Source: a virus
Virus record (IMG/VR): IMGVR_UViG_3300042695_000005
Location: 1-22,761 of that record
Strand: one strand, 5' to 3'
DNA: 22,761 bases
This document shows positions 5,516 through 17,215 of the stretch, piece after piece; the first letter of the stretch is position 1; each line of letters opens with the position of its first letter. The notes under the pieces are model-generated. The model saw nothing but the letters and a program-made list of their open reading frames with translations. It was not told the DNA's origin and did no database searches. Position numbers and translations under genes: made by a program.

Positions 5516-7186
5516 ATGCCAACAATATTAAAGACTAAAAACAGCGTTACTACTACGGTAGTGCCGACTACATTACAACAGGGTGAACTTGCGGTAAACA
5601 TTACCGATAAGAAATTATGGGTAGGTAATGCCGCAACAACCCCAGTACAACTGTTGGGTGCTGGCGTAACTGGAGATGTTGTAGGCCCTGCTTCTGCTAC
5701 AGACAACGCTATAAGTCGCTTTGACGCAACAACTGGCAAGCTAATTCAAAATTCATTAGTAACAGTTAGCGACACAGGTGCTATTTCTGCCCCTGTTGAT
5801 GCTTCTATATCAGGTCTTACTGTTGGTAAGGGTGGTTCTGCAATAGGAACTAATACTGCCGTAGGTGATAGAGCGTTAAACGCAAATACAACTGGCTCAG
5901 ACAGCGTTGCTGTTGGAACTTTGGCTTTATTTACAAACACAACTGGTGCTTCTAATAGTGCTGTAGGTCGTGATGCTTTACGCTTTAATACTACTGGCGG
6001 TTCAAATACCGCTTTAGGTAATAGTGCTTTATTATCAAACACCACAGCATCTAATAACACCGCAGTAGGTTATCAAGCTGGGTATAGTAATACGACTGGT
6101 ACAGCAAATACTTATTTAGGTCGTGTAGCTGGATATACAGGAAGTACCGCTAGTGCCAACACTATGATTGGTATGAATGCTGGTTTTGCTACAACTGCAA
6201 GTAATAATACTTTTGTTGGTGCTACAACAGGAACATCAAATACAACAGGTCAATATAATATTGCTGTTGGTGGTACTGACGAAGCAACTGTATTTTCAGC
6301 ACTTAGAAGTAATACTACTGGTTCATTCAATACTGTATTGGGTGCTGGTGCATTAGGACAAAACACCACCGCATCTAATAACACAGCAGTAGGCTACCAA
6401 GCTGGATATAGTAATACTACTAACGCAGACAACACATATATTGGTAGACAAGCAGCTTACAATGCAGTCAGCCAACAAAATGTAATTATTGGTTCGCTTG
6501 CTGGCTTTGGAATTGTTGCACAAGGTGGTCAAACAATAGTTGGCTACCAAGCAGGATATTCTAATGTGGGAACAGGTAGCACTTTAATTGGCTACACAGC
6601 AGGATATAACAGTACTGGTACGCAAAATACTTTTGTCGGTTCATTTAACGGAACTAATGGCTGTGGTTACTTAATGACCACAGGTTCTGACAACACTATT
6701 CTTGGTGGTTTTAACGGCAACCAAGGCGGTCTAGACATCCGTACAGCAAGTAACCACATTGTGTTATCGGATGGTGATGGAAATCCAAAAATTTATCATA
6801 CTTCTGCAGCTTTATATGTGCAAAGTGTTTATGACAATACAACAGCTGTTTCTGCCAATGTGTGCGTAGCATCCAATGGCGGTATTTCAAGGGCAACTTC
6901 AGCACTTAAATACAAACAAGATGTTAGAGATTTACCTTCTATTGACATCAATAAATTTAGACCAGTAGTTTATAAATCTAAATGTGAAAATGATGACCAA
7001 ACTAAAGACTATTTTGGATTTATTGCTGATGAGGTTGATGAAGCTGGAATTAAAGAATTAGTGCAATACGGTGCAGAAGGTGAAATTGAAGGCTTTTCTT
7101 ATGACCGAATGACTGCTGTATTGGTTAAAGCAATTCAAGAACTTAAAGCAGAAGTAGATTCCCTTAAACAACAATTAGGAAAATAA
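5516..7186 (+). CDS. Trimeric fibre with YadA-like head repeats and C-terminal S74 chaperone
   Basis: This 556-residue protein has three parts. Residues 1-50 form an N-terminal base with 'GELAVNITDKKLWVG', a style seen at virion-proximal ends of phage receptor-binding proteins. Residues 53-90 are the linker shared with the preceding fibre. About 105-400 are tandem repeats of the type NTAVGxxAgxxNTTG, like the left-handed beta-roll head of YadA-type trimeric adhesins. From residue 462 it ends with an intramolecular chaperone of endosialidase (peptidase S74): SALKYK supplies the Ser-x4-Lys catalytic pair (S462, K467), followed by 'YFGFIADEVDEAGI' and a C-terminal helical arm. Such domains trimerise the fibre, then cleave themselves off just before the serine. 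It is probably the main receptor-binding fibre. AAGG at 5505-5508 precedes the ATG. Confidence 0.88.
   Translation: MPTILKTKNSVTTTVVPTTLQQGELAVNITDKKLWVGNAATTPVQLLGAGVTGDVVGPASATDNAISRFDATTGKLIQNSLVTVSDTGAISAPVDASISGLTVGKGGSAIGTNTAVGDRALNANTTGSDSVAVGTLALFTNTTGASNSAVGRDALRFNTTGGSNTALGNSALLSNTTASNNTAVGYQAGYSNTTGTANTYLGRVAGYTGSTASANTMIGMNAGFATTASNNTFVGATTGTSNTTGQYNIAVGGTDEATVFSALRSNTTGSFNTVLGAGALGQNTTASNNTAVGYQAGYSNTTNADNTYIGRQAAYNAVSQQNVIIGSLAGFGIVAQGGQTIVGYQAGYSNVGTGSTLIGYTAGYNSTGTQNTFVGSFNGTNGCGYLMTTGSDNTILGGFNGNQGGLDIRTASNHIVLSDGDGNPKIYHTSAALYVQSVYDNTTAVSANVCVASNGGISRATSALKYKQDVRDLPSIDINKFRPVVYKSKCENDDQTKDYFGFIADEVDEAGIKELVQYGAEGEIEGFSYDRMTAVLVKAIQELKAEVDSLKQQLGK
5672..5785 (+). repeat. Fibre linker module, copy 2
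   Basis: Encodes residues 53-90 of the second fibre protein and matches 4814-4927 at the protein level (28 of 38 identical by eye). The DNA has diverged more than the protein, mostly at third positions, so the duplication is not recent. Confidence 0.85.
5828..6715 (+). repeat. Tandem YadA-like head repeats (coding)
   Basis: A run of degenerate units of roughly 40-50 bases encodes the beta-roll of the fibre (about residues 105-400). Two units are nearly identical in DNA: 6038-6097 and 6362-6421 differ at 6 of 60 positions by my count and lie 324 bases (108 codons) apart, so unequal recombination between them would delete or add sequence in frame. Confidence 0.8.
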
Positions 7187-7403: not shown

Positions 7404-7552
7404 TTAAGCTAGAACTTGACATTAACGCTGTTAATTTCATTCTGCAAACGCTAGGTGAACTTCCCACTAAGACTGGTGCATGGGAACTTGTAAAGCAGAT
7501 TAAAGAACAAGCTGATCCAAAAGTGCCTAAAGAACCCGAAGTAGTCCAGTAA
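7400..7552 (+). CDS. 50-residue conserved-type phage protein, unknown function
   Basis: A short gene starting MIKLELDINAVNFIL and ending with TAA at 7550-7552. Both ends overlap neighbours: ATGA at 7400-7403 with the gene before and TAATG at 7550-7554 with the gene after. It reads as a short strand, a central amphipathic helix ('NAVNFILQTLGELPTKTGAW') and a charged tail with Lys-Pro. Proteins with this beginning and length recur as hypothetical genes in podoviral structural regions; no function is known to me. The exact stop/start overlaps on both sides are strong evidence that it is real. Confidence 0.75.
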   Translation: MIKLELDINAVNFILQTLGELPTKTGAWELVKQIKEQADPKVPKEPEVVQ

Positions 7553-8031
7553 TGTTTGCATCGGCTTTTCAGGCTAATGCGTTTCAAAACAACGCCTTTC
7601 AAGTCTATGTTCCCCCAACCCCTACCAGTAACCTAACTGGTGGGGATGATGCAAGCTGGACACCTGAAGAATTAAAACGAATCCGCAAGCTATCTGCAAA
7701 AATAGCTGAACGGCAGCGTTTACTTGAAAAAGCCACTAAAGATGCTAATGCTTCACGCAAGCAAGCATTTAAAGATTTAATTGACCCTGTTGCAAAAGTT
7801 AAGCAACCTAAAGTACAATCCAAACAAGAGGTTAAAGCTGATATACCGTTAGCTGAAACAGAAGAATTACAGCGGTCTATAAGCTACCTTGAACGACAAC
7901 GGGATAATATCCTTCAAGCGGTAGCTTACAGAAACCAGCAATATCTCATTCAAGAGCAATTGCGAGTAATGGAAGCCAAACGACTTGCCGAAAAAGATGA
8001 TGAGGATGGAATTTTAGCGTTGTTTTTATAA
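7552..8031 (+). CDS. Coiled-coil protein with AFQxNAFQ N-terminal repeat, unknown function
   Basis: This 159-residue protein begins with a short tandem peptide, AFQANAFQNNAFQ (residues 5-17), then a proline-rich linker (VPPTPTS) and two long charged helical stretches, about residues 37-85 and 103-150, likely coiled coils. AFQ-type N-terminal repeats occur on small phage structural-region proteins and may be a docking peptide, but this is inference. It ends with a hydrophobic ILALFL. The ATG overlaps the previous stop (TAATG). The Shine-Dalgarno-like GGAGAAGG for the following unit begins just after its stop. Confidence 0.7.
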   Translation: MFASAFQANAFQNNAFQVYVPPTPTSNLTGGDDASWTPEELKRIRKLSAKIAERQRLLEKATKDANASRKQAFKDLIDPVAKVKQPKVQSKQEVKADIPLAETEELQRSISYLERQRDNILQAVAYRNQQYLIQEQLRVMEAKRLAEKDDEDGILALFL

Positions 8032-8032
8032 A

Positions 8033-8062
8033 GGAGAAGGCGATTACTTGCCTGAAACATGA
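8033..8062 (+). promoter_or_regulatory. Strong RBS and 4-codon leader frame before the glycosyltransferase
   Basis: GGAGAAGG (8033-8040) is too far (18 bases) from the glycosyltransferase ATG at 8059, but is ideally placed, 7 bases away, for a TTG at 8048. That TTG opens TTG CCT GAA ACA TGA, whose TGA (8060-8062) overlaps the ATG (ATGA). Ribosomes could load at the strong site, translate four codons and re-start on the glycosyltransferase. It may equally be a relic of an older start. Confidence 0.45.
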
Positions 8063-8952
8063 CAGCATATAGACAGTACAAAAAAGGTGTAGATTTACTA
8101 CACATGGGGCATTTCCAAGCTGGATTTCGCCTATTTGAGTTCCGTTGGCATCCTTTGGTGATGCAGGCAACTGGTGAAAACTGGCAAAAATGGATAAAAG
8201 CACCCAAATGGGATGGTGAAAGGCTTATTGGTAAGCACATTACTGTCCAAATGGAACAGGGATATGGCGATATTATCCAATTTGCACGATTTTTACCTAT
8301 GCTCAAGGCTTGGGGAGCTAAGACTTTAAGTGTTATGTGCCATGAATCCATGATGCAGCTACTTGGAACGATGGATTGCATAGATTACATTTCTTGCTCT
8401 AAGACAGCAGGCCCACCATTAGAAGCAGATTACTGGATTGGGTCTATGTCCTTACCCCATTTTGCGACTTATGCACCCCCTTTTGTCAAACAATCCTTTC
8501 CTGTTACAACCCAAAAGATTGTTGGCTCTGAAGGGTATTTTGAGGCTAGACCATCCAATATTGAACGCAAAGTAGGGGTAAATTGGTCTGCATCTAATGG
8601 CCCATTGCACTACACCAAGTCAATTCCCCTAGAAACCATGCGAGAACTGGTTGGTGATGATATTTACTCACTCCATATAGAACTAGACGATGTGTTTGAC
8701 CCATTACCTAATGACGGATGGAAAAAGAACTTTTACAAGACTGCCTGCCACATGAAGGCGATGAAAGCAGTAGTAGCACCTGATACTGCCACCGCACATT
8801 TAGCTGGTGCATTAGGTGTAAAGTGCTTTTTATTGCTGCCAGACCATGATTACATCTGTTGGCGTTGGAAAAACGCAACATGGTACGATTCAGTAGTAAC
8901 CCTTAGAAAAGAAGAATGGCATTTATTACCTTCATTATTGGAGAACCTATGA
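8059..8952 (+). CDS. TPR/GT9-like glycosyltransferase encoded by the phage
   Basis: This 297-residue protein matches the pattern of tetratricopeptide proteins fused to a heptosyltransferase-like (GT9, GT-B fold) domain. Residues 3-32 form one TPR-like helix pair ('YKKGVDLLHMGHFQAGFRLFEFRW'-type, with the final W). The catalytic part shows EQGYGDIIQFARFLP (66-80), VGVNWSA (162-168) and a nucleotide-sugar-binding motif PDTATAHLAGALG (241-253), followed by the 'LLLPDHDYICWRW' region usual for the family. Bacterial relatives carry many TPRs; this copy keeps about one. There is no membrane segment, so it acts in the cytosol. Possible targets are virion proteins or host surface glycans; the sequence does not say which. 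A stop codon lies just upstream in frame, so ATG 8059 is the first ATG. Its stop overlaps the next ATG. Confidence 0.82.
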   Translation: MTAYRQYKKGVDLLHMGHFQAGFRLFEFRWHPLVMQATGENWQKWIKAPKWDGERLIGKHITVQMEQGYGDIIQFARFLPMLKAWGAKTLSVMCHESMMQLLGTMDCIDYISCSKTAGPPLEADYWIGSMSLPHFATYAPPFVKQSFPVTTQKIVGSEGYFEARPSNIERKVGVNWSASNGPLHYTKSIPLETMRELVGDDIYSLHIELDDVFDPLPNDGWKKNFYKTACHMKAMKAVVAPDTATAHLAGALGVKCFLLLPDHDYICWRWKNATWYDSVVTLRKEEWHLLPSLLENL

Positions 8953-9326
8953 TTTGCCCTAAATGCGGATATTCCAAAGGAAACCATGTTGAAGCCAAAC
9001 AAACGGATGAGGAATTTTTCCTAGAATGGTGGACACCTACTATTGGCTTAGAAGCCGCCAAAGCATCGTGGCTTGATAAAGTAGCCATGAAGTCTAGGGT
9101 AGCCCCTATGGTAATGCCTGACATTGCAGGACACATTAGCATGGCTGATGGTACATGGGTAGGCAGCCGATCCGCACACCGTGAGAACCTAAAGCGTAAT
9201 AACTGCGTGGAAATAGGCGATGCTGTGCCAATGCAGCAAAAAGCCCCTGAAATTAGCCGCAAAGATCAAGAAGCCCGTAAACGGCAGATTGCTGAAATTA
9301 CTTATTCCAAACTTAACTACAGGTAA
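8949..9326 (+). CDS. Small CxxC protein, conserved phage type, unknown function
   Basis: A 125-residue protein starting MICPKCGYSKGNH. I chose ATG 8949 over an in-frame ATG at 8916 because TTGGAG (8938-8943) sits 5 bases upstream and the ATGA overlap with the glycosyltransferase stop is typical of this genome. Only one CxxC pair (residues 3-6) and one later cysteine are visible, so a complete zinc ribbon would require dimerisation. The C-terminal half, with 'PDIAGHISMADGTWVGSRSAHRE' split by my reading into a strand and 'SRSAHRENLKRNNCVEIGD', resembles a small protein found just before scaffold/capsid genes in many podoviruses. Its role there is unknown. Confidence 0.75.
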   Translation: MICPKCGYSKGNHVEAKQTDEEFFLEWWTPTIGLEAAKASWLDKVAMKSRVAPMVMPDIAGHISMADGTWVGSRSAHRENLKRNNCVEIGDAVPMQQKAPEISRKDQEARKRQIAEITYSKLNYR

Positions 9327-9330
9327 AACT

Positions 9331-10419
9331 ATGTCAGATGACCGCAGAGAATTACTAGAAGCAGCCTTAGACCAAGCCGAAGATGGCACTTTAGAAGCCC
9401 CTATTGAAAAGGAGATTGAAGTAAATGACGATCCAATCCAAGCCGAAAACGCCAACGAAGAAAGTGGCAGCGAAGAAATTAGTCGTGACGAAAAAGGTCG
9501 CTTCAAAAGCCAAGAAGCCAATACCGAGCAGGATTCCGCTGAAGAATCTGACATGGTGGGACAAGCTAGTGATGTTTCTGACGAGGAAATAAAACGCCCT
9601 ACTACTTGGAAAAAAGAGTATGTCGAGGTATGGAACAAGATGCAGGAAGGCAAACCGTTAGATAAAGCGGAGTTTGCTAAGTTTGCTGAATATGCAAACC
9701 AACGGGAATCCGAGTACAAAAAAGGTGTTTCTGCCTACAAAGCAGAAGCCGACAATGCACGGCAACTTACGGAAGCGATTGGCCCTTACATTCCTGAACT
9801 GCAAGCACAAGGTATTCATCCCGTTGCTTGGATCAACAATCTAGGTCGGGCGCACATGATTTTAAGCAAAGCACCATATCAAGAGAAGGTGCAGATGTTC
9901 CATAGACTTGCACAAGATTATGGAATACAATTAAATCAAGACGCAGTTCAGATGCCTGAACAAGCGTATGTAGATCCGTATCAGCAACAGTTAATGCAAC
10001 AACTTCAAGCTACACAGCAACAAGTTTATCAACTGTCAGCGATACGGGAGCAAGAAGAAAATGCTCGATTGAGCCAAGAAATCAATCGGGTAAGTAGTGA
10101 CAGAGAGCGGTTTCCGCACTTTGACATGGTACGGGAAGATATGGCTCAACTACTTGAGCGAGGTTTAGCCCCAAACCTAGAAACGGCTTATGCCAAAGCG
10201 GTGCGTATGAATGACGAAGCGTACAAACTAGAGCAAGATAAACTCTTGAAATCAGTTGGTTCACAAGCGTCTAAGGCACAGCAAGTAGCTAAAGCTAAAG
10301 CAACTGCTGTTAGTCCACGATCCGTTACTCCTAGCGGTCAAGTGAAAAGCACAGATGCAAAGGATAGACGATCCTTGCTGATGGCTAATTTAGCCGATGC
10401 AGAGGGTGGTCGGGTTTAA
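9331..10419 (+). CDS. Capsid scaffolding protein
   Basis: This 362-residue protein directly precedes the major capsid gene. The first 75 residues are strongly acidic, followed by 'RDEKGRFKS', helical regions, a Gln-rich coiled coil about 210-255 ('YQQQLMQQLQATQQQVYQL'), and a basic Lys/Ala-rich C-terminus (about 315-350) that would bind the capsid protein. Acidic helical proteins with basic tails in this position are phage scaffolds; they shape the procapsid and are lost on packaging. I chose ATG 9331 (AGG at 9321-9323, 7 bases upstream) rather than an in-frame ATG at 9220, which would add 37 basic residues inside the preceding gene. No protease motif is visible. Confidence 0.82.
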   Translation: MSDDRRELLEAALDQAEDGTLEAPIEKEIEVNDDPIQAENANEESGSEEISRDEKGRFKSQEANTEQDSAEESDMVGQASDVSDEEIKRPTTWKKEYVEVWNKMQEGKPLDKAEFAKFAEYANQRESEYKKGVSAYKAEADNARQLTEAIGPYIPELQAQGIHPVAWINNLGRAHMILSKAPYQEKVQMFHRLAQDYGIQLNQDAVQMPEQAYVDPYQQQLMQQLQATQQQVYQLSAIREQEENARLSQEINRVSSDRERFPHFDMVREDMAQLLERGLAPNLETAYAKAVRMNDEAYKLEQDKLLKSVGSQASKAQQVAKAKATAVSPRSVTPSGQVKSTDAKDRRSLLMANLADAEGGRV

Positions 10420-10430
10420 CTTAATCTAAT

Positions 10431-10445
10431 AAAGGAAATATCATG
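10431..10445 (+). promoter_or_regulatory. Ribosome binding site of the major capsid gene
   Basis: AAAGGA (10431-10436) lies 6 bases before ATG 10443. The context AATAAAGGAAATATCATGGCAT is almost repeated before the next gene (11439-11459), suggesting a duplicated high-output initiation region for the two most abundant head proteins. Confidence 0.75.
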
Positions 10446-11426
10446 GCATTCGCAAATAGCGCAATCACCGATATTATCGCTACCACCATTCAAAGTCGTA
10501 GCGGAGTATTGGCAGATAACTTGACACAAAACAATGCAATTCTTCAGCGTCTTAACTCCAAAGGGAATGTACGGCCTTTTTCAGGCGGTAATGTAATCCT
10601 TGAGGAAATTATGTACAACGATCCAGCGACTAACAATGCTAATAGCTATAGCGGCTATGAAGTATTGAATATTACGCCTGATAGCCCTATCTCTGCGGCT
10701 CAGTTCAGCATTACTCAGTATGCTGATTCTGTGACAATGAGCGGTCTAGAAATGTTGCAAAACAGCAGCAAAGAAGCAATCATTGACCTTTTAGATGGTC
10801 GTATGCAAGTTTCTGAAGCCCGTCTGTTGAACCGCATTTCGGGTGACTTGTATGGTGACGGAACTGGTAACGGTGGTAAGAACATTACTGGATTGGCCGC
10901 TGCCGTTTCAACTTCACCAAACTCAGGCACATACGGTGGAATTAACCGTGCAAACTGGGAATTTTGGCGTAACCAAGCAACTACTGGTGCTAACGATGCT
11001 GCAACAATCCAAGCTGCTATGACAACTGCTGCTATCAAATCTGTTCGTGGTAATGATAAGGTTGACCTTATTATTGCTGGTAACACTTTGTATCAGCGTT
11101 ATGTAGCTTCTTTGCAAGCAATTCAGCGTATTGCTGGTGTAGACGAAGGTGCAGCAGGTTTCGCATCACTCAAGTTCTACGGTGGCGGTATGTCTGCTGA
11201 TGTGGTACTGGGTGGTGGTATTGGCGCACAAGAGAACGCATTGTATATGTACCTCTTGAACACCGATTACATCTTCTTCCGACCACACAAAGAGCGTAAT
11301 TTCGTTCCTATTGGTGGTGAGCGTCAGTCGATTAACCAAGATGCAATCGTGAAGCTGTATGGTTGGGCCGGCAATTTAACCTGCTCCAACGCTTCATTGC
11401 AGGGCATTTTGACTGGTTCAGCTTAA
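10443..11426 (+). CDS. Major capsid protein (HK97-fold type)
   Basis: This 327-residue protein follows the scaffold and has a strong ribosome binding site. It begins MAFANSAITDIIATTIQSRS, contains an E-loop-like region around 'NVRPFSGGNVILEE' (42-55), the motif TYGGINRANWEFWR (163-176) seen in one lineage of HK97-fold capsid proteins, and a C-terminal domain with 'YIFFRPHKERNFVPIG' near 275-291. It assembles into the icosahedral shell. Length is in the usual range. No N-terminal prohead-protease delta domain is apparent, consistent with a separate scaffold. The next gene, a probable decoration protein, follows after 27 bases with a near-copy of the same initiation region. Confidence 0.9.
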   Translation: MAFANSAITDIIATTIQSRSGVLADNLTQNNAILQRLNSKGNVRPFSGGNVILEEIMYNDPATNNANSYSGYEVLNITPDSPISAAQFSITQYADSVTMSGLEMLQNSSKEAIIDLLDGRMQVSEARLLNRISGDLYGDGTGNGGKNITGLAAAVSTSPNSGTYGGINRANWEFWRNQATTGANDAATIQAAMTTAAIKSVRGNDKVDLIIAGNTLYQRYVASLQAIQRIAGVDEGAAGFASLKFYGGGMSADVVLGGGIGAQENALYMYLLNTDYIFFRPHKERNFVPIGGERQSINQDAIVKLYGWAGNLTCSNASLQGILTGSA

Positions 11427-11440
11427 TCAACCGACTAAAT

Positions 11441-11456
11441 AAAGGAAATTATCATG
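11441..11456 (+). promoter_or_regulatory. Ribosome binding site of the decoration-type gene
   Basis: AAAGGA (11441-11446) is 7 bases before ATG 11454 and the surroundings copy those of the capsid gene, including the ATGGCAT start. High translation is expected. Confidence 0.75.
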
Positions 11457-11750
11457 GCATATTCAACTCTCCCCATCGCTGGGATTAATTTAGACAGCAT
11501 CCAGTCTGCAGCCGACATCGCAGCTTACGGTGAGCCAGTAGACTTTGGCCCACTTGGCACACAAACTTTCGCTTCTGATGGTTTGCGTTATGTTTGGGCT
11601 GAAGCTGCTGCTACTATTGCCCCAAGCACGACTGTTTGCAACATCGACACAACAGCCTTTACTGTTGCCGCTACTGGTGGAGCTTATATCTCCCCAGCAG
11701 TTTCAATGGTTTCAGGTGACTACGGTTGGTTTGGCAAGGCTAGTGTTTAA
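11454..11750 (+). CDS. Probable capsid decoration/cement protein
   Basis: A 98-residue protein immediately after the major capsid gene and before a terminator. It is small, beta-rich and Ala/Thr-rich, without cysteine pairs or membrane segments, and has the 'SDGLRYVWAEAAATIAPSTTVC' style seen in head decoration proteins, cut here at the cysteine. Such proteins sit on the capsid surface and stabilise it against internal pressure. Position, size, strong ribosome binding site and the shared terminator with the capsid gene all suggest an abundant head protein. A direct family match cannot be shown by eye, so the role is a good inference rather than proven. Confidence 0.65.
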   Translation: MAYSTLPIAGINLDSIQSAADIAAYGEPVDFGPLGTQTFASDGLRYVWAEAAATIAPSTTVCNIDTTAFTVAATGGAYISPAVSMVSGDYGWFGKASV

Positions 11751-11772
11751 TAGCAAAATGTAGTAAAAACAG

Positions 11773-11801
11773 GGGGTTACCTTAATCGGTAGCCCCTTTT
11801 T
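11773..11801 (+). terminator. Rho-independent terminator after the head genes
   Basis: GGGGTTACC (11773-11781) pairs with GGTAGCCCC (11788-11796) as a 9-bp stem with one G-T wobble and a 6-base loop TTAATC, followed by five T and then CCTTTT. It is the only clear intrinsic terminator in the window and would separate the abundant head messages from the tail genes or reduce read-through. Confidence 0.88.
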
Positions 11802-15402: not shown

Positions 15403-15834
15403 TTGCGTAGGGTTATTACTGATAATCAATCTCATTTAAAGGCTTGGATTAGTGGGGTTTTGGGCATAAATTTTGACGAAAATACCACTTGCATTGGGCA
15501 GGAAATAGACGGTGAAGTAAAGGCGGTAATTGCTTATACAAACATACAAGATAAATCTTGCTGTATGCACGTTGCGGCAATTCAAGACGGCTGGATTAGT
15601 AAAGATTTGTTATGGGCGGCTTTTGATTACCCCTTTAATAAACTAAAAGTAAAGGTTATACTAGCGGCAGTAGCTTCAACTAACGAAGAAGCGTTAAAAT
15701 TAGACCGACACCTTGGTTTTATTGATAAAGCATATATTGAAGATGCCCATTTAGATGGGGATTTAGTTATATTAGCAATGTGGCGTGAAAACTGTCGATG
15801 GCTCGGCATAAACGCCCCAATAAAAGGAGCATGA
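15403..15834 (+). CDS. GNAT-like acetyltransferase-fold protein
   Basis: A 143-residue protein with a GNAT-like layout: a strand region 'EVKAVIAYTNIQDKSCCMHV' (about 37-56), a helix, the strand 'KVKVILAAVAST' (81-92), then a helix 'NEEALKLDRHLGFI' (93-106) and 'LDGDLVILAMWRENC' near 118-132. The 'A...N..A..L...LGF' pattern is the usual C-terminal part of GNAT enzymes that bind acetyl-CoA. Small GNAT-like genes often sit between tail and internal-virion genes of podoviruses, where they may be virion components rather than enzymes. It starts with TTG at 15403 immediately after the nozzle stop; only purine-rich GGAG/GGGGG lies upstream. The substrate is unknown. Confidence 0.72.
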   Translation: MRRVITDNQSHLKAWISGVLGINFDENTTCIGQEIDGEVKAVIAYTNIQDKSCCMHVAAIQDGWISKDLLWAAFDYPFNKLKVKVILAAVASTNEEALKLDRHLGFIDKAYIEDAHLDGDLVILAMWRENCRWLGINAPIKGA

Positions 15835-15835
15835 T

Positions 15836-17215
15836 ATGGGTGGCGGTGGCGGTCTTTTAAGTCCAGTAACAAATTTAATATTTGGGAAACCCCCAAGCGC
15901 ACCCCCACCCCCTGATTATCGTGGTGCAGCGCAAGAAACTGCGGCTGGCAACCTTGATGCAGCTAGAGCAGCAGCAGCGGCAAACCGTGTAAATCAAGTT
16001 ACCCCTTATGGAAACCTTGATTACAGGGTTAGTGGTTTTGACCCATACGGCAACCCTACTTGGACTGCTACTACAAGTCTTTCTGATGTTGGTCAGCAAC
16101 TTTTAAACAATCAAAATGCTGCTAGTTTGGGTTTAGGTTCTGCAATTACTTCCCAGCTAGGTCAAGTACAAGATGTGATGGGGCGCGGATTTAACCCCAA
16201 TACCCCAGCCATTCAATATGGCGGTCAAGCCCCAACGCTAGGTCAAGTTGGTCAAGCAGGACAAGCGCAAGGCATGGGCAATGCTCCTACTTTACAAACA
16301 GGTCTTGACTATCAAGGCATGGAAGGCTGGGACAAGGCTACTGCGTTGCTAAATCAGCGTTTGCAACCACAAATCCAACAAAGCGAAGAACGCTTACAAG
16401 CCCAATTAGCCAATCAAGGTATTGCACAAGGCACAGAAGCGTATAACCGTGCTATGGCTTTACAAGGTCAAAAGACTAATGATTTGCTTACGCAAGCACA
16501 ATTGGCTGGTCAAAATGTTCAGCAGAATATGTTTGGTCAAGCCTTGCAAGGCGGTCAATTTGCTAACCAAGCAATGCTCGGACAAAACCAAGCGCAACTT
16601 GGCAATGTGGCTCAAAGCAATCAAGCCTTACAGCAAAACTACGCTAACCAATTGGCAGCGCAGCAACAAAACAACGCTGCAATGCAACAAATGTTTGCAA
16701 ATCAACAAGCTGGTGCTGGTTTAAGCAATCAAGCACAGCAACAGGCTTATAACCAAGCCCTTACCCAATACAATATGCCGCTTAATACTTTAAGTGCATT
16801 GCGTACTGGCGCACAGGTGCAAAACCCATCGTTTATTAATGCACCACAGCAAGCCACTACAAGTGGTGCAGATATTTTAGGTGCGACAGGCATGGACTAT
16901 AACGCCCAAATGGGCGGTTTTAACGCTCAAGCAGCCGAACGCAATAACATGATGCAAGGGTTGTTTTCATTAGGCGGTGCAGCATTGATGTCAGACATTC
17001 GCACCAAAGAAAACATTAAACAAATATATTGGCTGCCTAACGGCTTGCCAGTTTACGAATACGAATACAAGCCTGAGTTTAAAAACCATCCTTTAGCTGG
17101 ACATGGCAAGTTTATTGGTGTTATGGCGCAAGAAGTTGAATTGGTGCAACCTGAAGCAGTTATTACCAATGCAGATGGTATCAAAATGGTTAATTACGGA
17201 GTGTTAAATGGATAA
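15836..17215 (+). CDS. Gln/Ala-rich virion protein with shortened C-terminal S74 domain
   Basis: A 459-residue protein in three parts. The N-terminus (MGGGGGLLSPV, then 'KPPSAPPPPDYRGAAQET') and 'VNQVTPYGNLDYRVSGFDPY' (52-71) are typical of a family encoded before ejection proteins in environmental podoviruses. About 95-360 is rich in Gln, Ala, Asn and Gly and mostly helical. The C-terminus from residue 386 is an S74 chaperone: SDIRTKENI has the Ser-x4-Lys pair (S386, K391), followed by 'GKFIGVMAQEVELVQPEAV' and 'VNYGVL'. It stops about 20 residues earlier than the fibre's S74 domain and lacks its helical arm. It may be processed during assembly. AAAAGGAG (15822-15829) is a good ribosome binding site. 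The last 8 bases overlap the next gene. Confidence 0.78.
   Translation: MGGGGGLLSPVTNLIFGKPPSAPPPPDYRGAAQETAAGNLDAARAAAAANRVNQVTPYGNLDYRVSGFDPYGNPTWTATTSLSDVGQQLLNNQNAASLGLGSAITSQLGQVQDVMGRGFNPNTPAIQYGGQAPTLGQVGQAGQAQGMGNAPTLQTGLDYQGMEGWDKATALLNQRLQPQIQQSEERLQAQLANQGIAQGTEAYNRAMALQGQKTNDLLTQAQLAGQNVQQNMFGQALQGGQFANQAMLGQNQAQLGNVAQSNQALQQNYANQLAAQQQNNAAMQQMFANQQAGAGLSNQAQQQAYNQALTQYNMPLNTLSALRTGAQVQNPSFINAPQQATTSGADILGATGMDYNAQMGGFNAQAAERNNMMQGLFSLGGAALMSDIRTKENIKQIYWLPNGLPVYEYEYKPEFKNHPLAGHGKFIGVMAQEVELVQPEAVITNADGIKMVNYGVLNG

Follow-up and report, generated by a model that had tools for sequence, protein, structure and literature searches.

A GT9-like glycosyltransferase gene that co-varies with the gene of a small putative head protein in HTVC010P/Mx8-like podophages

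The DNA analyzed here, called the window throughout, is the 22,761-nt stretch formed by positions 1 to 22,761 of IMG/VR virus record IMGVR_UViG_3300042695_000005. Its plus strand carries a run of genes in the order cc159, GT, zn136, scaffold, major capsid protein (MCP) and hd98, closed by a terminator-like hairpin. The first of these, cc159 (7552-8031), encodes a coiled-coil-like protein upstream of GT and abuts zn136 in several phages that have no GT. GT (8059-8952) encodes a predicted TPR-trimmed GT9-like glycosyltransferase of 297 aa, consisting of a hairpin (residues 3-30) and then a GT-B domain. It is followed by zn136 (8949-9326), which encodes a small zinc-ribbon-like protein (MICPKCGYSKG...), by a putative scaffolding protein gene (9319-10419), assigned by position and composition with no family match, and by the gene for an Mx8-like MCP (10443-11426; phrog_9953, E 1e-94; 48-53% identity to Mx8, Mx9, and BUCT555). 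Directly after MCP lies hd98 (11454-11750), the gene of a putative head or decoration protein of 98 aa. An intrinsic-terminator-like hairpin with 11 pairs and a T-rich tail (11771-11798) comes right after hd98 and is a possible end of a transcript running from GT to hd98; the total hairpin count from a terminator scan of the window was no better than in shuffled sequences.

GT is embedded in a structural gene block, as the original prediction had it, with the scaffold and capsid genes beside it. The stop/start coupling that was also proposed holds downstream only, where the GT stop and the zn136 start overlap in ATGA (8949-8952) ahead of the scaffold gene; upstream, a 27-nt gap separates the cc159 stop (8031) from the GT start (8059). 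The fibre genes, with their high content of Thr, Ser, and Asn, had been described as adjacent to GT and were found to be nearby rather than adjoining, about 0.9 kb upstream and earlier. An S74 (endosialidase chaperone) domain lies at the end of two proteins, one a fibre protein (5516-7186; weak match, E 0.006) and the other a virion structural protein (15836-17215; E 8e-9). Among the tail-region genes there is also an acyl-CoA N-acyltransferase (15403-15834; phrog_4470), and a GNAT gene is similarly placed in Stenotrophomonas phage BUCT555. The affinities of the virion block are mixed, with a terminase (214-1563) closest to that of Pelagibacter phage HTVC010P (42%) and an MCP closest to that of Myxococcus phage Mx8 (53%).

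More than 300 IMG/VR contigs carry GT, and its position next to the scaffold-capsid genes recurs in hundreds of contigs from HTVC010P/Mx8-like podophages. Among capsid-baited loci that extend far enough upstream, 38 of 40 have it, and it is retained alongside very different fibre sets. Hundreds of homologues keep the same length and frame. In relatives without the gene the flanking genes abut, and neither tblastn nor a profile search found a trace of it there. The GT-bearing phages appear to be an abundant group, mostly from lakes, a habitat taken from the group and not from the window's own record.

The GT open reading frame is genuine: it runs uninterrupted through its 297 codons, a dN/dS of 0.06-0.13 indicates purifying selection, and all three motifs quoted in the original prediction are conserved among homologues. 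Across 56 phage and bacterial proteins, E66, Q67, G68, G70, D71, R77, W176, H247, R269, W270, W275, and Y276 are invariant and D242-T243 nearly so, with no loss of motif residues. The motifs of GT9 enzymes, a catalytic Asp near the N-terminus and a D-T/S-x-x-x-H donor-site motif, are thus present as E-Q-G-x-G-D71 and D242-T-x-x-x-H247. We take D71 and D242/H247 to be the equivalents of WaaC D13 and D261/H266, and the enzyme is presumably active.

A structural model was generated with AlphaFold2 from an alignment of phage and bacterial sequences (pLDDT 91.1, pTM 0.90), which replaced a shallow phage-only alignment (pLDDT 67, loose matches). In it, a single TPR-like hairpin, made of helices at residues 3-15 and 19-30, leads into a GT-B domain, the fold that had been predicted. 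When the model was compared with solved structures using Foldseek, the best matches were GT-B enzymes at TM 0.5-0.56, led by the GT9 structure 3tov (5.5e-7) and including WaaC (5e-6), TibC (6.5e-5), and WaaF (TM 0.56). By analogy with these nearest structures, a nucleotide-heptose donor is suggested and no more.

Family assignment by profile was less clear-cut. GT9 (PF01075) was indeed the sole family to appear in a Pfam scan, at 14.4 bits under a curated cut-off of 22, and the copy in the window therefore falls short of formal membership. PF01075 was matched by 14 of 15 homologues (best E 1.2e-4). Bacterial relatives likewise score just under the cut-off, and for this reason the family is described here as GT9-like and not formally as PF01075. 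Among viral structure models, a phage protein 52% identical to GT already carries a family 9 annotation, and the family is therefore not new; a search of open-licence papers found no study of it.

The bacterial relatives themselves are TPR-glycosyltransferases related to PF01075. A first profile search of genome contigs with the phage GT profile gave no match, and the relatives were recovered by tblastn of a divergent GT homologue against plasmids, over 91-100% of the query and with E-values down to 1e-29. They are homologous over the whole phage protein (the last hairpin and the GT-B domain), share its motifs, and are 27-32% identical to it. As judged from these alignments, the phage protein is the C-terminal part of the bacterial family. 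In those examined, TPRs take up 116-425 residues ahead of the corresponding point, whereas phage GT keeps a single hairpin, with no TPR array in the model and no Pfam TPR match; both the TPR-glycosyltransferase origin and the trimming to about one repeat had been anticipated. The phage protein further differs in a shorter loop around residue 216, in SLH or SLN where the bacterial proteins have SLQ, and in its place in a virion block.

The surroundings of such relatives vary. On a Burkholderia ambifaria plasmid (L173:3167-7167), a TPR-glycosyltransferase and a second TPR protein are encoded next to each other and beside a gene annotated as a superinfection immunity protein. Flagellin genes adjoining bacterial TPR-glycosyltransferases were considered as a hint to a protein acceptor and dropped, having been found at just 2 of 88 loci. 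Marine virus AG-345-E08, which has a TPR-glycosyltransferase relative, also has genes (L084:21174-24027) for relatives of dTDP-glucose dehydratase and of the HldE heptose kinase/adenylyltransferase, all below the curated equivalog cut-offs; the HldE-related proteins hint weakly at an ADP-heptose-like donor.

The other gene of interest, hd98, encodes a putative virion protein, to judge from its position and from a weak PHROG match (phrog_26298, virion structural protein, E 6e-4), which 6 of 12 homologues share. In Mx8, a second major virion protein is encoded at the same position after MCP; no sequence similarity between the two was detected, and a relationship by sequence was rejected. No solved structural relative of hd98 was found.

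It is hd98, not mentioned in the original prediction, that co-varies with GT. In partial Mantel tests with the GT similarity matrix of 110 phages, hd98 gave r 0.39 (p 0.001), compared with 0.20 for zn136, 0.13 for scaffold, and 0.09 for MCP, and GT was tied more to hd98 than to any other gene despite the three genes between them. Among pairs of phages with close backbones, median hd98 identity was 0.87 when GT identity exceeded 0.9 and 0.63-0.66 when it was below 0.7, while scaffold and capsid stayed alike. Fibre-region similarity showed no relation to GT type (by a crude k-mer measure, partial r 0.05, against 0.39 for hd98), which speaks against the fibre target that had been put forward.

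The window itself illustrates the exchange. Compared with an L004-like lineage it is 93-98% identical in GT and 87-97% in hd98, and only about 58% in scaffold and about 83% in MCP; compared with its backbone relatives L176 and L179, it is 98% identical in MCP, 54-57% in GT, and 47-55% in hd98. Breakpoints in the DNA fall near 8000, 8950, 11480, and 11700. Judged from these identities, the window is a recombinant, with GT and hd98 from the L004-like lineage and zn136, scaffold, and capsid from another. The arrangement recurs in two other contigs, L001 (identical) and L003, making an assembly error less likely.

The presence of GT follows hd98 as well as its type. An initial test that pooled GT-, MCP-, and hd98-baited loci gave 2 changes of GT presence on the hd98 tree and 7-8 elsewhere; it was discarded as proof because pooling can create an association (the GT-less phages had come to light mainly via the hd98 bait). 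In order to avoid this sampling bias, capsid-baited loci only were used, giving 111 distinct phages, 10 of them without GT. On the hd98 tree of this set, GT presence required 4 changes, compared with 9-10 on the MCP, scaffold, zn136, g216, g300, and cc159 trees and a shuffle mean of 9.7. Trees of portal, g669, GNAT, and g459, which cover fewer phages, were at shuffle level. An IQ-TREE phylogeny of hd98 for a subset gave 5 changes. Grouping the GT-less phages as one clade was not rejected by hd98 in an AU test on a 56-phage subset (p 0.43), and was rejected by MCP (2.9e-5), zn136 (2.7e-38), and scaffold (4e-37). These counts are to be read with trees of a 98-aa protein that are weakly resolved and with GT-less phages that are few. 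In the whole contigs of eleven GT-less phages, which may be fragments, no GT was found elsewhere.

Within hd98, GT similarity is associated more with the C-terminal half (rho 0.68) than with the N-terminal half (0.40), and the sister phages L495 (with GT) and L497 (without) are 96% identical in the N-terminal half and 73% in the C-terminal half. The segment that best tracks GT presence is residues 51-80 (11604-11693, plus strand), with 2 changes, a value reached in 0 of 1000 shuffles for a segment that was picked after inspection. Position 67 is the sole position in this segment with Ser or Thr in all GT-bearing phages; it is a candidate acceptor at most, since 83% of GT-less phages have Ser or Thr there too. 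Arg45, present in 97 of 99 GT-bearing and 2 of 10 GT-less phages, was rejected as an acceptor because L495 and L497 go the opposite way.

Residues 52-54 also differ between the two groups. In GT-less phages they often form N-x-S/T (N in 23 and S/T in 25 of 29, a set partly baited with hd98), as noted for L211, L212, L329, L364, and L497, and in GT-bearing phages they are small residues (GAA, GVA, AAT). One exception, L525, has no GT and yet has a GGA like that of GT-bearing phages. The N-x-S/T motif was rejected as an acceptor of GT because it occurs in phages that lack the enzyme and not in those that have it.

The pairing with hd98 suggests that the phage sugars its own shell. Co-variation of this kind is evidence of a functional tie and not proof of an enzyme-substrate relation; on a case for the acceptor that is genetic, we lean modestly toward a TPR-trimmed GT9-like enzyme that glycosylates hd98 within or near residues 51-80, the two forming a matched pair. 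GT would be a soluble GT-B enzyme of the TPR-GT9-like type that has lost its TPR array, would be made together with the head proteins, and would add a sugar to hd98 before or during head assembly; the shell would therefore carry a glycan. Enzyme and acceptor would both be swapped between phages by recombination, and phages without GT would carry another type of hd98. The glycan would probably alter the particle's outside contacts, such as sticking, proteases, grazers, or binding to other surfaces. We give roughly even chances to the wider formulation of a one-enzyme, one-acceptor cassette, in which GT serves a dedicated head protein, the pair is exchanged together, and the enzyme is lost along with the acceptor type, leaving sugar-coated and bare shells.

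The main rival, which takes up the host-surface target of the original prediction and which we consider unlikely, is that GT alters a host surface glycan, against superinfection or against re-adsorption to debris, and that hd98 is a surface-binding head protein. The same genetics would be expected: with hd98 matched to that glycan, the two genes would be coupled and would co-vary with no enzyme-substrate tie. Surface-binding head proteins exist, T4 Hoc being an example, and WaaC and WaaF, the closest solved structures, act on lipopolysaccharide (LPS). Alteration of the host surface alone, however, does not predict pairing with a head protein; the fibres, as the main host-recognition proteins, show no co-variation with GT by the crude k-mer measure, and a gene in the head block is expected to be expressed late.

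More improbable still is that GT and hd98 are two often-exchanged modules under a common pressure of host range or environment, with no direct molecular link. Both are swapped between lineages, phage genomes are mosaic, and the neighbours cc159 and zn136 vary too, but these other variable genes and GNAT do not track GT presence, nor does the fibre region track GT type. Moreover, the signal is concentrated in one part of hd98 and ties GT presence and absence, not type alone. Decoration of a tail fibre has very little in its favor: the Thr/Ser/Asn-rich genes do lie upstream, and TPR-glycosyltransferase relatives in cyanophages S-SRM01 and BUCT-ZZ01 are near tail-fibre genes, but GT is kept with very different fibres and does not co-vary with them. 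That GT is an inactive remnant or a structural relic is hardly credible, since a short protein under the Pfam cut-off and without the TPR array, to which substrate binding is ascribed, nonetheless has motif residues invariant from bacteria to phages, a low dN/dS, and hundreds of homologues of unchanged length and frame.

If glycosylation of hd98 by GT is correct, capsid glycosylation by phage enzymes, documented mainly in actinobacteriophages, would extend to small HTVC010P-related podophages, in which one enzyme would act on a small acceptor that is open to testing. GT-less relatives that occur naturally with another hd98 type would offer a ready comparison for the effect of a sugar coat in water, and presence/absence combined with co-exchange in metagenomes would be a culture-free way to seek the targets of glycosyltransferases.

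Several known systems resemble parts of this proposal, and a search of open-licence papers for glycosylation of phage decoration proteins by a glycosyltransferase returned nothing relevant by title. The GT9 heptosyltransferases WaaC and WaaF share the GT-B fold and are the best solved matches, but are 11-14% identical to GT and have the LPS core as their acceptor. The autotransporter heptosyltransferases TibC and Aah (BAHT) are WaaC-related GT-B enzymes that modify a protein, and TibC was matched by Foldseek. TibC assembles into dodecamers, and its structure includes a beta-barrel at the N-terminus, a hairpin thumb, and an iron finger with four cysteines (PMC4358343); in GT there is no N-terminal barrel in the model, no Cys among the invariant residues, and no recognizable TibC insertion. 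The closest likeness in bacterial viruses is that of actinobacteriophages (Che8 and others), whose own glycosyltransferases put glycans on capsid proteins, with MCP as the reported target (Freeman et al. 2023, cited in PMC11256854); here the small protein after MCP is implicated instead, the enzyme is GT9-like, and the glycan is proposed. Chlorovirus PBCV-1 likewise modifies its own virion shell with virus-encoded cytoplasmic glycosyltransferases (PMC7019647), using at least eight putative enzymes for N-linked glycans in an algal virus, as against the single gene considered here.
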